From Mytilus galloprovincialis (Eukaryota > Mollusca > Bivalvia > Mytilida > Mytilidae), in assembly GCF_965363235.1 (NCBI RefSeq), contig NC_134839.1, positions 57,193,560-57,257,559 of the forward strand: a stretch of 64,000 bases of DNA. Direction: 5' to 3'. The notes beneath the pieces were generated by a model. The model did not search any database. It was not told the origin of the DNA and worked only from the letters and a program-made list of their open reading frames with translations. Position 1 is the stretch's first letter, and each line of letters begins with the position of its first letter. Positions 39,420 through 47,749 of this stretch are shown piece by piece. The translations under genes were made by a program, and so were the position numbers.

Positions 39420-40175
39420 AACGGTTAGAGCGAGTGAGGTGCTCAGATTGAGTCAATGAGGAGCTCAGATTGAGTTAGTGAGAGGTGAGACTGTGAGGCG
39501 CTGAGAGGTGAGACTGTAAGGTGCTGAGAGGTGAGACTGATTGTGTGAGTGAGGTGAGAGTGTGTAAGTGAGTGGTGAAACTGATTGTGAGGTGACTCAG
39601 GTGAGAGTGTGTAAGTGAGTGGTGAAACTGATTGTGTGAGTGAGGTGAGAGTATGTAAGTGAGTGAGGTGAAAGTATGTATGTGTGAGTGTGTATGGGTG
39701 TGAGGTGAGAATAAGTGTGTGTGTAAGTGAAGTGAGAATGATTGTGTGAGTAAGGTGAAAGTGAGGTGACAGTGAGAGACAAGTGAGAGTACAGGGAGAG
39801 TGAGAGTGCCGGTGAGGTGAGGTGTGATTGAGTGAGGTCAAAGTGTGAGTGAGAGAAGTGAGAATGATAGAGGTGATGGTGAGAGTGCGAAAGTGGTGAG
39901 TGAGAGTGAGTGAGAGTGAGTGATGGAGAAAAAGTTAGGTGAGCGTGTGACACAGTAAGTCTGTGGGAGAGTGGGTGAGTGAGGGGGATAAGGGCTGAGT
40001 GAAGGGGAAAGTGATTGAGTAGGATGAGAGCGAGTGAAAAGAATGCTTTGCGAAAGAGCGGTTAGGTGTGACTGCGGTTGATGGTGAGGGTGTGGATGTG
40101 TAAAAGAGTGAGTGAGAGAAAATTAAAGTGAAAGACAACTTGCGACCCACTGACAGAGTGTGTGATGACATTTAA
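39420..40175. repeat. GAGTGA/GTGAGGTGAGA-rich low-complexity block
   Basis: About 750 bases of purine-rich plus strand built from 'gtgagtgaggtgagagt', 'gtgtaagtgagtggtgaaac' and similar words, with no fixed period. Minus-strand frames give Ser/His/Thr-rich strings and are not genes. It ends about 40 bases before the transposon at 40218. Confidence 0.88.
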
Positions 40176-40217
40176 ATAGTATGAAAGGTTGTGAAAGAGT
40201 ATGAGAGTAAACATACA

Positions 40218-40271
40218 CACAGTGTAGATACTATTCTGTACGCTATCCGAAAGTCGCGATTTTCGAAGCGA
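40218..40271 (+). repeat. Left terminal inverted repeat of the transposon
   Basis: Begins CACAGTG. The only mismatch to the right copy is A at the 33rd base, where the right copy has G (on its own strand). CpG-richer than the surroundings (TCGCGATTTTCGAAGCGA). Confidence 0.92.
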
Positions 40272-43050
40272 GAACTTTTTGAATCACATTTTAAATTTGA
40301 TGGGTATACTGAATTAAACGGTAAGTTGATCATCTGTACATTGCTTAATGATTAATTCAGCCGACATCGATATTCTCAAATGGTTTAGAATTAAATTCCG
40401 CACATTCATTATTCGTATATTTGCCTTAATCAAGAGATTTCCAAGTGCATCACTAAGACAAATCAGTCGGCGAACCTAAAAACAATCTTTTTACCCTCTT
40501 AGTGTACAAATTAACGTAAAAACCTGATTTAATTAACTAAATGAAGTATATTTCAAGTGGTGGTAAAAGTTTCAACCAGATCTTTAAAGCCAGAAATAAG
40601 AAAATTACACTTGTTTGAATTTCTCACTGTACGATCAGTCTCGCTTGTATATTTTAAAACTGTATGGTCAGTCTTTATGTCACTGTATTCTAGTGATGAT
40701 TTCAAAGTTATTTACGATACATTAGAAGGTGGCATTTCTAAATAACACAAATATAATTCAATAAATTCACATCCTGAAAAGTTATGAAACATGTTTTAGC
40801 TTGATAGGGTGTACTCGACTTACCACATTAAGTAAAAGGATGTTTAAATGTTGATAAAATAAGGGGAAGGGTTGATGTATACTAGTATATAAGTTTCAGA
40901 AATGTCCTCCGTTATTCTTAAAATTGTACAAACACACAGATTTAGTTGTTAGATAAAAATGCATGTATTTACACACATTCGAGGCCGTACTGTAGCCTAT
41001 AATTGATCACAGTTCCTTCACTTTGTTTAAGATGTAGAGATGTCTCTTTGACACTCAATTGTACACCACTTTGTCAAGGGGGGGGGGGGGGGTTTAGTGA
41101 TAAAGAAGTCCGTCTTTCCGTTCGTCCGTTGGACCGGTAAAATATGTTTTGCCGGTTTTGTAAGCGCATCTCCTCATAAACCACTTAATATACATTGGGG
41201 GTTCCGGCCATTTTTAAATGGAGAGGGGGTCTAATCCAGGAGAAAAGGCGATTCCAAATATATGTTCCCATACAAATGCATTGATAGTTTAAAAACAGGT
41301 TTCAAACTGCCGGATCCCCTTTTTTTTAATCCGTCACTGATATAACTATTACTTAATCTTATTCGGTTTCCTTATCATAAATGATAATGACTGTATTGTG
41401 CACCGTCTATTTCGAATTTTAGTAAAAATCTTTTATGGGGTTACTTTATATAAGATACGGACTTGAACATTGCATTTTATGGGGGCACCCATCAGGTATT
41501 TCCAACACCTCTTAAACCATTCATTAAAGTTTTCTGAAATTGCTCCATTTTTACTCGATTAATGCATTATGGACCTTCTATTTTTGTAAACTTACCAAAA
41601 TTATATCACATGAATTACCCCCCTACGCAAAGCTGTCTTTATCCATTTTTTGTTATTTTAAAAGAGACAAGCTTAATTTATGTTATCATCAATTGGTCAA
41701 CGGCGGACGGTGTAAATAATCTTTAAAAATGTAATAGCTAAACAGATAACTGTAACGATACACTATTACAAAGTCCACAAGCGAATCATGTATTACTTTT
41801 TAGGCATTTGATTTTAAATAAGACTGATGAACCAAAAATACATTTAATTTGCAGTCTAAAAAATTCATCAGAAATATATTTGTATTGTCTGATGAAAGTA
41901 ATTACACGTTATAGTTCCCTGGAGGATAGTTCATAATATCACAAACACACGTATATACCTTCAAATTGTTGTTGTTTTTTCTTCAAAATCACGACTGGTC
42001 ATACAGTCAAAAAATCTGAAATCGCTTCTAGAATACAGTCAGTTCTAGACTGATCGTACAGTAATTTATTTTGGGATCCTCAAGGAAAACATATTTTTTA
42101 TGGGAAATACGAATATTCTACTTAAATACGAAAAGAATATTGAAACAGTATATATTTAACTGTAAACTGATGCAAATATTTGCAATTAAAGATTATTTGC
42201 TTTGTACTACGAGAGCAAAATTGTCCATCGATTTCACTTTTTTCTACCAAGTTGATGTGATGCACACGTATATTTTATATTCTAATGCATGTTTTTGTTA
42301 CAGTTACTCATATTTATGATGCTATATGGGTCATTTTCAAAAAATGTAGATATTTTGTAATGGTGTTTTTCAAAAAAAAAATTACTCATATCGTTTTTAA
42401 TTTTATTTTGTTTCAACACAGAACTATTCAACTGTATCATAAAATAACAGAGCATTACTTTTGAATGCACAAAATGTCAAAAATTAAAAAAATGTACCTC
42501 TTGCTGTCTGCAAGTGTCACTTGTGTTACCATAACAACTTATTTGAAAAAAAAAATACTTTATTATTTAAAACCATCTTTGTAAACGTTCTAAAAGGATT
42601 ATTAGTTGAAAATTACTCGAATGTTATATATTTTATATAATTTTAAAGATTTTTTAATATTATTTTTCTAAATTCAAAGTCAGTCACAGAAAAAGCTAAT
42701 TTTAAGTAATAAACTTTGGTAATTTATGTGAAAACAAGTTGAATAAAAATATTCGTTCTCTCTCGAATGAAATGAACTGGCAATGCATTGTCCAAAAGCG
42801 AAACAATTATTAATTTAATTCAGAGGTTCATCTTTAGCATGCATTTTTCTATCAGTAACGCAAGTGACAATTTGGTAACACAAAAAGGAAAAAAGTAACA
42901 CTAGTGACATTCATACAAAATAACAACATATTTGATACAGTAAAAAAAACTATCAATGTTTCTGAAATATCTAATATGACATTCTTTGTTGTTCATTCAT
43001 ATCTTAAACCTATATTGATCTAGACACACATTTGAGGTCTATCAGTTAAG

Positions 43051-45951
43051 TCACATTTTGATCATTTCAAGGGCTTGTTTCCAAAGACTGACATCAACGA
43101 TGTACTTTTGTCCAACAAGTTTGGGTTCTGGAATTGTTCCCAAAACGTTCTCCATGTCGTACCAACATTCGTCTCTTACTGCAAGAGGCCAATAAAAGGA
43201 TGGATTGTCTAGGTTTCCTATTCTGTGCATACAACTTACAAACACCTCGGTTTCATCGCAATCTGTGACGATTCCAGGGTACGGTTTTTTGTCATAAGCC
43301 ACTAGTACATACTGTCCAAGTAAATCTTGAGGACTTAGATCTGAGACATTGAGATAGTTGTGTCTACTCCCGCCTGGATTATCGCCATTGTCAGTGTGTT
43401 CTTTTATATTAACATCTTCGAATTCGTTACCACTATTGAGTTCACCTCTTCTGTCGGAAGAAATGCCGTCACCTGCCACCGACTCATCACTGATGCCTGT
43501 ACTATTTTCATTGTCGTCGTTCTGTCCAGTTTGTTCCATTGGTGGTAAAACAATGAAATGATTGGGTACCCAATTGTTCCTTCTCATGTCGTTTCTCGTT
43601 GTAGTCCACATTATAAAACTTGTTTCTTTGCTTTTTATTTCTCTAGGTTTTATCATGCGATGAAGGTCTCTTCTGACGTTAGGGTTACCAAGGTTTGGAT
43701 ATACCGAATATATGTGACGACATAGCACACTAGCTAGGGCAAATACTTGCCAAATACCCATATAAGATTTATTCTTGCAAATTTTCAGGACCTCTCTCTC
43801 ATATAACCTTTCGATTTCTCCATTTGACAATACTTCATTTGCATATTCATCCGAGTAAAACGCAAAAGTTTTCGCAAGAGAATTATTCTTTTCCCGAAAT
43901 CCCCTTTCCAAGAAGCCTTGATTCAAGTATGCATCCTTGAAAATACAGGATTCGAGAATAATTCGGACTCTAATTTCCTCACTCATACCTTCCTTTCCAG
44001 AGACAAGTATACTACCCGAGTATGGTAAACAATTACCATCTGCACTGACTTTGACAGGATGAAGCGTTACATCAAGTGGTATGTCAGATGGCAGAATTGA
44101 ATGTGTTCTTTCATAAATTGCGATCCCAGTATTTGTGATATTTGGCGAGTAATTATAGTCTATTCTGTAACCCTTCTCATCTATGATTCGATAGATATTT
44201 TCGCATTTTTCTAGTATTTCCTCGTATGTCTGACATTGTCCAAGTTCGGTTAATGTGCGTGCGAAATAATACTTCCTTTTAGCTACTGTCCTATCTTCAG
44301 GTACCTGTATTTCTGGTGATTGTAGTGACCGGTGTCCTTCTTTATCATTGCACGCTCCTTGGTGTTCTGTTTCTGGTTGTTCACTTTTTTTTCGTTTTTC
44401 TGTTGTTTTAGCTTTTCTGTTGATCAGGGAATGCACTTTCATATCGTGTCCTGCATGAAATGAGCCTTTGACGCAAGTGCAGCTCACATCTCTGTACAGT
44501 ATATTTCCATATCCAGAGTACCATTTTTGGTGGAGTTTTAACGTTCCTGGAACGGTTTTGAGGGTTTCCTTTGATAAAATTATTGCCTTTTTGTCTATTT
44601 CTTGCTGTCCTACTTCATACACAAATACGGCAGAATCCTGGAAGTTCTTTACTAAAGACTTGGCACTCATTATATCTTTCCCATGAAGCACCAGGTCATT
44701 TGCTCGTCTTTTCAGAGCTCCACCTACACCGTCTGGCACTCCTTTTCCGTGTCCACTTTCATGGAAGTTCCATTCTCCAGATAAATTTCTGACTGTCATT
44801 TCGTGCGTAAAAAGTAAGAAATTGCCCTTCTGCTTGTATTGCGTTGACGGACCATCGCTAGAAAAGTGCACAGTGTCAACATCCTTGTTGGCTTGTAGAA
44901 GTTTATCCAAAATGGGGTCCATAAATGCCCAAACTGAGCAAGGATTGTGATCTAGACTATCTGACACTGCGCAAAATGTTTGTGAACTTAATGCAGTGTA
45001 AAAGACTCCAGTGTGAAGTGTTAATTGCTTTTTCGATGCCCCAAAATGCATGCTTTGTATTTTATTTGCTAATTTGCATTGAAAATTTTCAGCAAAATCG
45101 ACGTGAACGAGTGCTTCGTTTGGCTTTAAATTTTCTTTGATATTTCTGTAATGTTTCATCTGATTTGCTATGTTGAATGCGTGTATTTTTAACCTTTGCA
45201 TCTCTGTAGAAAAGGTATCCATCAACACATGAATGCTATCTGTGACTGTTTCCTTGACGGTCAAAGTGATTTCTTTCTCGTCACCTTTAATATTTCTTTT
45301 CTCCTTCTTTGTTTTCCATTGCAGCCAGGATGTTTCCTCATTATTGTCTCCCTGATCGTTTGTAATGATATTTATTTCTTTGCATTTCTCTCATTTTCCT
45401 TACATGCAATCCAAATCTTTTATGTCACAACTGAAAGTTTTTATCAGATCAGAAAGAGATTTCGACTCGACATGCTGTAATTTGAATAGTGAGTCTACTA
45501 GAAACTGCATGTTCTCGTGTTTCTTACAACCACAGGTGTCCCTATCAGATTCTTTTGGGGGTTGAACCAAGAATGGTCTAAGTCGACTAAATGTTGTGTA
45601 GCTTAGAGTTATGTTTGTATTTTCAATCAAAAACTTCTCGTGTAACTTTTCTACAGTGTCATTTAATATTCTCCTTTGTTTTTTCACACCATTTTTAGTC
45701 ACAGTGTCCTTCATACTAGGTGTTATCTTGCTGTTGTCGTCTCTTTCATAGAATTCAAAAATTTTCGGTTTGAGTCTGTATGACAAGGACCCTTTCTTAA
45801 AACGAGTTGTACCTGCTTTCATTTTAAGCTCTTCTCTTGCTTTGTCTATTAACTTATATTTCTTAAGCAGTCTTCCCTGTGTCAACTCTGCTAGATACTT
45901 CTGTTGTTGTCTTTTAGCTCGACCATATTTTGTCTTCAGTTCATCACTCAA
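43051..45951 (-). pseudogene. DDE-like transposase with OTU-like and C-terminal domain, two nonsense codons
   Basis: One frame of about 966 codons. Parts in order: a basic N-terminal part with FYERDDNSKITPSMKDTVTK and TLSYTTFSRLRPFLV, then CGCKKHEN; a transposase core with HVDFAENF (Asp codon 45097-45099), HFSSDGPSTQYK (Asp 44854-44856) and NFHESGHGKGVPDGVGG (Glu 44758-44760), a D-D-E triad by pattern; SCTC; an OTU-like peptidase part with ADGNCLP (Cys 44029-44031) and PNHFIVLP (His 43558-43560); and a C-terminal part GQYVLVAYDKKPYPGIV to FYWPLAV. TAA (45400-45402) and TGA (45391-45393) lie four codons apart inside a Cys-rich piece. No in-frame ATG exists at the start; the frame opens after stops, so a short upstream exon or decay is likely. 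The combination resembles uncharacterised transposases common in aquatic invertebrates. No intron that would remove both stops in frame was found. Confidence 0.82.
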
Positions 45952-46231
45952 CGAAAGTTGTTATCACATAGAATTGTAGATAAGCGATATTTTCTGTTTA
46001 GATATTAATTCTTACATTTTATTGTTGAATTACGAAAAGAAAAAACATGATTTTTTAAAAACATTTGTCCAGAAAACAACTGCATATGTTACTTACACAA
46101 ATATCTACATTTTTTGAAAATGACCAATATATACCTTGAAGATGTTCAAAGCACTTTGTAGATATAGGAGTAAACAAATGATGAGAAAAGTTACCGTAGG
46201 CAAAACCGTCCTGTTAGCCAGTTGGAAATCA

Positions 46232-46285
46232 TCGCTTCGAAAATCGCGACTTCCGGATAGCGTACAGAATAGTATCTACACTGTG
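46232..46285 (-). repeat. Right terminal inverted repeat of the transposon
   Basis: Read on the minus strand it begins CACAGTGTAGATACTATTCT and ends GAAGCGA. Followed on the plus strand by the ATACA target duplication. Confidence 0.92.
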
Positions 46286-46373
46286 ATACACTGAACGAAT
46301 ACAAATGATCTATAAAATAAAGTGTGAATAAATAAAGGCAACAGTAGTTTTGCGGTAGACATGTAAAATAATT

Positions 46374-46408: not shown

Positions 46409-46586
46409 CTATGTTTATCCATTAAAAAGTGATAGACGCTTTATGTGTTTTCAAGTAAATCACATGTTGGTTCCCATTCAAAATGTAAGGAAAAAGAGTT
46501 GATATTAAGGAGACTCATTATACTATTTATAATTATAAATGTATCAAGAGATAACTGTAAACTTGACCCATTGACGGTAGCAAGGA

Positions 46587-46844
46587 AGCTACCATTTGAT
46601 TTTTATGGGGGGGGGGGGGGCTAGGATGAAAAATTTTGTCCTGCATTTTTTTTTAGTTGTAATCTCTGTCCTGCCTTTTTTTTTAATTAGTTTATCCTGA
46701 CTTTTTTTACCTAAATTGTCATCCTGCCTTTTTTTTTTTTTGCAAAGTGTCTCATCCTGCCTTTTTTTTTACTCAAAACTCCTGTCCTGCCTATTTTTTT
46801 CAAATTTAATCCTAGCCTCCCCCTCATAAAATCAAATGGTAGCT
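46587..46844. mobile_element. 258-bp MITE with about 35-bp TIRs and internal T-rich tandem
   Basis: Left end 'agctaccatttgatttttat', a G run and 'ctaggat'; right end is its inverse, 'aatcctagcctccccctc' and 'ataaaatcaaatggtagct'. Inside are about six imperfect units of 'tcctgccttttttttt' with 15-25 base spacers. No target duplication was recognised. Confidence 0.78.
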
Positions 46845-47749
46845 CCCCAAAAGGATGAAATTATCGAATTTCAGAGAGCATATGGAGTTTTTGTTTACAG
46901 AGACTGGAAATTTAGATACGACCTGTGTAACTTATCGGTCCTTTAAATAAACATATCTTCAAAGGGTACCAATTCATAATTTTGTTTTTATTAATATTTT
47001 AAAATCAAACTAAATATCATTTGTTTAAACATATGCAAATTCATTGCTATACAATCTGTCGATACTTTACCTTGGCATTGGTAAAGGTCATGTTTTTCTG
47101 ACTGTTAATGACGTATTTACACTAAATTCATTGGATGTTTATTAATTGAAATTGTGGTCTAAGATGCAAGGTTTTTATTATTAGTTGATATTGGATTGCC
47201 TGTCAGTAACCGAGAGTATTCTCATATGTGTACGTAGTGTTATTTTGTTGTGGTGATGTATAAGTACCTAGCCACAGTTCTACGTGTTTATTAGATGTGT
47301 TCTGCTTTGTATCGATCTGTTGAATATATCTCTTTTCAAGGATGCACTTAGGTGAGGTTTTGGAATTTGTGTCAAATGTTCGGACTCTTTGGTGTTTTTC
47401 CATACAATACAATGTAAAATATTTTGCCCCATAACACCCATTTATTTTTCCATATAAGACTAAATGGCTCATGAAAGGTCATTTACCAAAATTTTAGAAG
47501 ATTCTTGATTTTCTTTCTTTTGTTTTGAGACCCAAATAATAGTAATGCAAATATAAGGTAAAAGTCCGAGTCAGCCTTTTCCCGCCATATTTTAAATCGC
47601 AAATATCTCGAAAAGGAGGTCCATGACCTATCAATATTTTTAGCTTATCTTTATCCTTAATTGATGCTCTACCAGCTTATAGTATGAATTTTAATTTCTT
47701 AATTTATTATTTTTTACCTAACCTTAACTGTTAAATATAAAGTTTTTTT

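Follow-up and report, generated by a model that had tools for sequence, protein, structure and literature searches.

OTU domains are known from Ginger1 and Helitron transposons. The Ginger1 transposase is described as Gypsy-integrase-like, with an OTU or Ulp1 protease domain at its C-terminus, and the elements begin with TGTNR and produce 4-bp target site duplications (TSDs) of CCGG/CCGT (PMC2836005). Helitrons and Helentrons contain OTU and VTD domains, of which VTDs were described as active and transposon OTUs as not yet assayed (PMC9741609). Roles of these proteases in the removal of ubiquitin were suggested by the authors of both reports (PMC2836005, PMC9741609). Sola2 elements duplicate 4 bp of AT-rich target (AWWT/ATAT), their terminal inverted repeats (TIRs) are 12-21 bp long in slime moulds, and the transposase of Dictyostelium fasciculatum contains 888 aa (PMC3627910); Sola2 elements were also reported in bivalves (PMC10294476). 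The ends of Transib/RAG-like elements start with CAC and are flanked by 5-bp TSDs (PMC7204232).

Here, a window of 64,000 nucleotides of Mytilus galloprovincialis was analyzed together with related loci of the same genome. The first-pass annotation had described a single transposon in this window, in which 54-bp TIRs and a 5-bp TSD enclosed a transposase fused to an OTU-like domain. Comparison of copies revealed two nested DNA transposons instead, and the OTU-transposase belonged to the inner one.

Results

Two nested transposons in the window

The 54-bp TIRs paired at 53 of 54 bases and ATACA was read on both flanks, as annotated (Table 1), but these ends did not belong to the gene. Counting the window itself, the genome contained at least 40 matches to the 83-bp left end of the outer element (40 of 564 candidates scored). 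Five of these copies were extended, and in the fifth (o4) no right end could be located. All four non-window copies with both ends read had the empty site TTTATGATGCTATATATACCTTG. These insert-free copies read GATGCTATATATACCTTG, where the window read GATGCTATAT, followed by the insert and then ATATATACCTTG, and comparison of the window with the empty sites showed that the 4 bp ATAT were duplicated at the insertion point. The insert of 3,799 bp contained the OTU-transposase gene. In loci closely related to the gene, the match to the window was confined to about 42323-45960. Eight sites of the gene outside the window were compared (L010-L015, L016 with L025, and L017). In each, the homology to the window broke off at the inner TIR, and about 0.3-0.8 kb of 3' flank had no match to the outer element; the 5' flanks of three of them (L010, L011 and L013) had no such match either. 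The divergence between the insert and L010 was 1.2% (45 of 3,797), compared to 92-95% identity between the window and the insert-free outer copies, which is consistent with an insert younger than the outer element.

Table 1. Positions of the outer and inner transposons and of the parts of the inner gene, numbered within the window.
Feature	Position	Strand	Basis
Outer (host) transposon, interrupted	40218..46285	.	54-bp TIRs, 53/54
Outer TIR left, starts CACAGTG	40218..40271	+	inverted-repeat match 53/54
Outer TIR right	46232..46285	-	inverted-repeat match 53/54
Outer TSD left, ATACA	40213..40217	.	sequence
Outer TSD right, ATACA	46286..46290	.	sequence
Inner OTU-transposase transposon, 3799 bp, 5'-deleted	42328..46126	-	empty sites; homology limit of relatives; TIR/TSD in L010, L011, L013
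Inner TSD left, ATAT	42324..42327	.	empty-site comparison
Inner TSD right, ATAT	46127..46130	.	empty-site comparison
Inner TIR, gene 3' end	42328..42355	+	27/28 vs other arm
Inner TIR, gene 5' end; terminal base differs, TGG for GGG	46099..46126	-	27/28
Deletion junction; about 1490 bp missing, including about 200 N-terminal codons	45960..45961	.	comparison with fuller copies
186-aa remnant of the N-terminal half, Cys-x-Cys motif	45400..45960	-	ORF
Open frame of 779 aa with transposase-like core, OTU and C-terminal domain	43051..45390	-	ORF
Transposase-like core: D1 (DFAEN), D2 (SDG), HGKxxxD	44569..45390	-	alignment of 12 families
OTU-like cysteine protease domain; DGNC 44029-44040, NHF 43555-43563	43534..44175	-	profiles, motifs
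C-terminal tail domain, bounds approximate	43054..43326	-	common to L019 and OTU-less relatives

The ends and copies of the inner element

The TIRs of the inner element were 28 bp long, began with GGGTCATTTTC and paired as GGGTCATTTTCAAAAAATGTAGATATTT. The same TIRs bounded the fuller copies L010, L011 and L013 (5,244-5,289 bp), with TSDs of ATAT, ATAA and ATAT respectively, so the first-pass pairing of the OTU-transposase with 54-bp TIRs and a 5-bp TSD was not borne out by gene copies elsewhere. In a second family, the TIRs were imperfect and the TSD was ATAA in three of four copies, while the fourth (L021) read ATAC/ATAT. The ends of both families start with GGGTC, and ATAT or ATAA was duplicated in seven of their eight copies, L021 being the eighth. 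When an OTU-less family was included, ten copies had been read at both ends, and the 4-bp TSD was exact in nine of them, again with L021 as the exception.

Two copies of this OTU-less family, L057 (with L063) and L062, were 5,036 bp long and 100% identical at different sites, which indicated very recent movement. Their TSDs, ATGG and AGTA, were also 4 bp and less AT-rich; the TIRs of L057 were 26 bp, and the ends had CATTTTCAA in common with the inner TIR.

The OTU-transposase and its relatives

The first-pass annotation had joined a D-D-E-like core, an OTU part with DGNC and NHF and a third C-terminal domain in one frame, which was confirmed on the minus strand of the window (Table 1). Two in-frame stops, one TAA and one TGA, separate this frame from the 186-aa frame upstream, and about 1.49 kb was absent on the 5' side compared to fuller copies. 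The window copy of the inner element is dead through this 5' deletion and the two stops. Unbroken stop-to-stop frames were found in L010 (1,170 aa) and L011 (1,175 aa), and in the second family in L019 (1,130 aa), L020 (1,130 aa) and L022 (1,123 aa); the proteins of the two families were 56% identical over most of their length. The order in the fuller copies was a basic N-terminus, a Cys cluster, the D/D/HGK-D core, the OTU part and the tail.

Twelve families of this genome, chosen by the authors from search lists and with L010 representing the window family, were aligned. The residues invariant in all 12 included C-x-C, W, H, D, N, E, S, H, D, Q, HGK and D, and the core D, D and HGK...D were kept throughout. 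An RNase-H fold and DDD chemistry of the core are suggested by these conserved residues and by the TIR/TSD anatomy. Neither the core profile nor the window protein matched any solved structure, and none of the proteins scanned with Pfam gave a transposase match. Single-sequence structure models of the OTU part and the core of the window reached pLDDT values of 37 and 32 and were unusable. Scans with the core alignment confirmed no relative in viral contigs or prokaryote genomes, and neither did a scan of the viral contigs with the OTU alignment.

The OTU part was present in 7 of the 12 families and absent in 5. Four OTU-less families (L055-L058) had frames of 850-891 aa, and in the fifth, L034, an apparent intron was followed by an exon in which the Cys cluster and the tail are joined directly; thus the OTU of L010 and L019 sits between parts that are adjacent in relatives. 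The tail is predicted to be a small barrel of SH3/chromo-like type. For the remaining five families with an OTU, the tail profile gave nothing convincing 3' of this domain: the protein ended 51-71 residues past the OTU in L036, L048 and L049, and tandem peptide repeats ran to the end of the fetched stretch in L046 and L047. Downstream of the gene in L036 and L037, direct repeats with units of about 0.4 kb were observed.

The OTU domain

The window protein alone gave no Pfam OTU match, and the matches of L049 (E 1e-3) and L036 (E 0.046) were both below the curated cut-off. When a profile of eight OTU parts was compared with solved chains, OTUD1 was detected at E 3e-4 over a short stretch, and the ten hits under E 10 contained entries of OTUD7B and of VCPIP1, also an OTU protein, at E 0.15 to 0.66. 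LeuO, eS4 and an entry for RNA polymerase were intermixed at E 0.087 to 0.22. The same profile aligned by hhalign to the OTU of another locus, L060, with 99.4% probability over 172 columns, and the L060 OTU itself scored above the Pfam cut-off (28.5 vs 23.3). DGNC and NHF were invariant in all eight rows, and the OTU regions of the seven families were 31-56% identical. Between the OTU parts of L010 and L019, pS was 0.81, which is saturated, and pN was 0.29, with a pN of 0.275 for the whole protein. At the level of sequence comparison, these results established OTU homology with conserved Cys/His motifs, and purifying selection.

Among the genome's weaker OTU hits, two were looked at, L060 (E 1.5e-5) and L061 (E 0.0045). 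L060 (1958-3400) has a PHD-like finger below the Pfam cut-off besides its OTU, and is perhaps another mobile-element protein. In L061 (2442-3500), which gave no Pfam match, an OTU-like stretch is followed by a zinc-finger-like segment resembling that of hAT-type proteins; possibly the OTU occurs here in a further class of elements.

The history of the OTU cassette

In the core tree, OTU-bearing families were placed in two positions, and OTU-less L034 grouped with L010 and L019 (100/99). The mean identity of OTU parts was 37.9% between the two lineages (10 pairs) and 35.3% within lineage A (10 pairs), while that of cores was 25.1% between lineages and 34.5% within lineage A. The OTU tree split the two groups (96/94) and did not root them, since its outgroup formed a very long branch.

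The outer element

Without the insert, the outer element is about 2.26 kb long. The four insert-free copies measured 2,260, 2,212, 2,445 and 2,239 bp, and their longest stop-to-stop frames were 82-113 aa. Both ends were read in five copies, the window's among them; four of these had a 5-bp TSD (ATACA, TTGTT, AATAG and TAATG), and the remaining copy showed only a 4-bp repeat, ATTC. No transposase-bearing partner was found for the outer element, which would presumably be mobilised by a transposase encoded elsewhere. The terminal CACAGTG is identical to the heptamer of vertebrate V(D)J recombination. A Pfam search of the genome for RAG1 gave no match, and control genomes were equally silent, so this search was uninformative. 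CAC ends and a 5-bp TSD are common to the outer element and Transib/RAG-like elements, while past CAC the end did not fit the protostome RAG-like consensus (PMC7204232). The outer element may be a non-autonomous member of the Transib/RAG-like elements.

Other repeats were observed in and around the outer element. Within it, 40659-40715 and 42006-42062 form an inverted pair that is 74% complementary and is perhaps an older nested element. Just beyond it, an inverted repeat with a spacing of 200 bp (46584-46615 / 46816-46847) is possibly a small non-autonomous element, and imperfect GTGAG-rich tandem repeats adjoin the outer element at 39456-40133.

Discussion

Well-kept TIRs and a TSD that flank a gene invite the conclusion that all of them belong to one transposon, as the first-pass annotation had supposed. 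Four outer copies lack the gene and preserve the empty site, whereas the gene copies have different TIRs and a 4-bp TSD and show no adjoining outer sequence at eight places. These observations leave the single-element explanation practically no probability, and the empty site rules it out. We consider it highly probable that the locus consists of an older outer transposon without a long frame and a younger, autonomous-type OTU-transposase element inserted into it, with the mechanism proposed below. The nested case is also a warning that copies should be compared before TIRs that flank a gene are taken as its ends. As for the OTU part, it could be a catalytically dead fold retained for protein or DNA contacts, in line with the low overall similarity to known OTUs and the scores of the family's own proteins under the Pfam cut-off. 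In that case, the loss of DGNC or NHF in some lineage would be expected, whereas both are kept in every row despite the low identity of the domains, and a dead fold is therefore quite improbable. That selection has conserved the active site speaks for a functional enzyme, which would be a deubiquitinase.

The first-pass annotation had named no superfamily. With the correct ends, the inner element resembles Sola2 by TSD and TIRs; no Sola-type Pfam match was obtained for its transposase. The TSD is 4 bp and AT-rich, with ATAA being AT-rich yet not AWWT, the TIRs are short (28 bp in the window copy), and one large transposase is encoded. The differences from Sola2 are the OTU module ahead of the C-terminal domain and the duplication of ATGG and AGTA by an OTU-less relative. 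That no protein scanned had a Pfam transposase match would suit an undescribed superfamily distinct from Sola2; however, ATAT and ATAA are close to the AWWT/ATAT described for Sola2 and the OTU-less relatives are similar in size to its 888-aa transposase (PMC3627910), and Sola2 elements of bivalves are on record (PMC10294476), which makes a new superfamily rather unlikely. The distribution of the OTU also allows two histories. The ancestor shared by the two OTU-bearing lineages may already have had the domain, with a later loss in L034 and perhaps also in the OTU-less clade. On the core tree, two changes fit one gain and one loss equally, and the OTU tree separates the groups without rooting them, so that the probability of this history falls only a little short of even. 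We prefer an exchange of the OTU cassette between transposase lineages, since the OTU parts are as alike between lineages as within one and the cores are not; unequal rates of the two domains could still account for this pattern.

Other classes of transposons were also compared. KDZ/Zisupton, for which Pfam includes models, was rejected as no Pfam match was found, and Academ was rejected by its 3-bp TSD (PMC5199201) against the 4-bp TSD here. Ginger1 likewise joins an OTU to a cut-and-paste transposase (PMC2836005), but the inner element has the ends GGGTCATT and duplicates ATAT or ATAA, and its protein did not match a Pfam integrase; Ginger1 was ruled out by ends and TSD. Helitrons and Helentrons are alike in that deubiquitinase-type domains are carried by a transposon, and differ by rolling-circle movement with another transposition enzyme (PMC9741609). 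A literature search for OTU together with Sola returned nothing relevant, with most subscription papers outside its reach; a Sola2-like carrier was thus absent from the literature searched, which is no proof of novelty.

A mechanism for the inner element can be proposed. The autonomous-type element inserted into the outer one and duplicated ATAT, and the transposase encoded by its fuller copies is about 1,123-1,175 aa long. In this protein, the basic N-terminus and the Cys cluster may bind the TIRs, the D/D/HGK-D core would cut and join DNA in a 4-bp staggered cut-and-paste reaction, and the tail may serve protein contacts. The OTU would strip ubiquitin either from the transposase or from host or repair factors at the cut ends, and may interfere with host ubiquitin signalling.

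The occurrence of an OTU in several families of a further cut-and-paste class with 4-bp TSDs, together with its apparent exchange between lineages, strengthens the idea that removal of ubiquitin aids transposition. Tentatively, these families may form part of one large family of animal transposases with invariant C-x-C, D, D and HGK...D and a 4-bp TSD, which would be a superfamily of its own or else branch deeply within Sola. Its deubiquitinase cassette, about 200-250 aa in length, would have been passed between otherwise distant lineages. If this is true, the cassette would be an accessory module with which mobile elements handle host ubiquitin. The genome of M. galloprovincialis offers a natural comparison, in which related transposases with the module (L010 and L019) and without it (L034) occur side by side.
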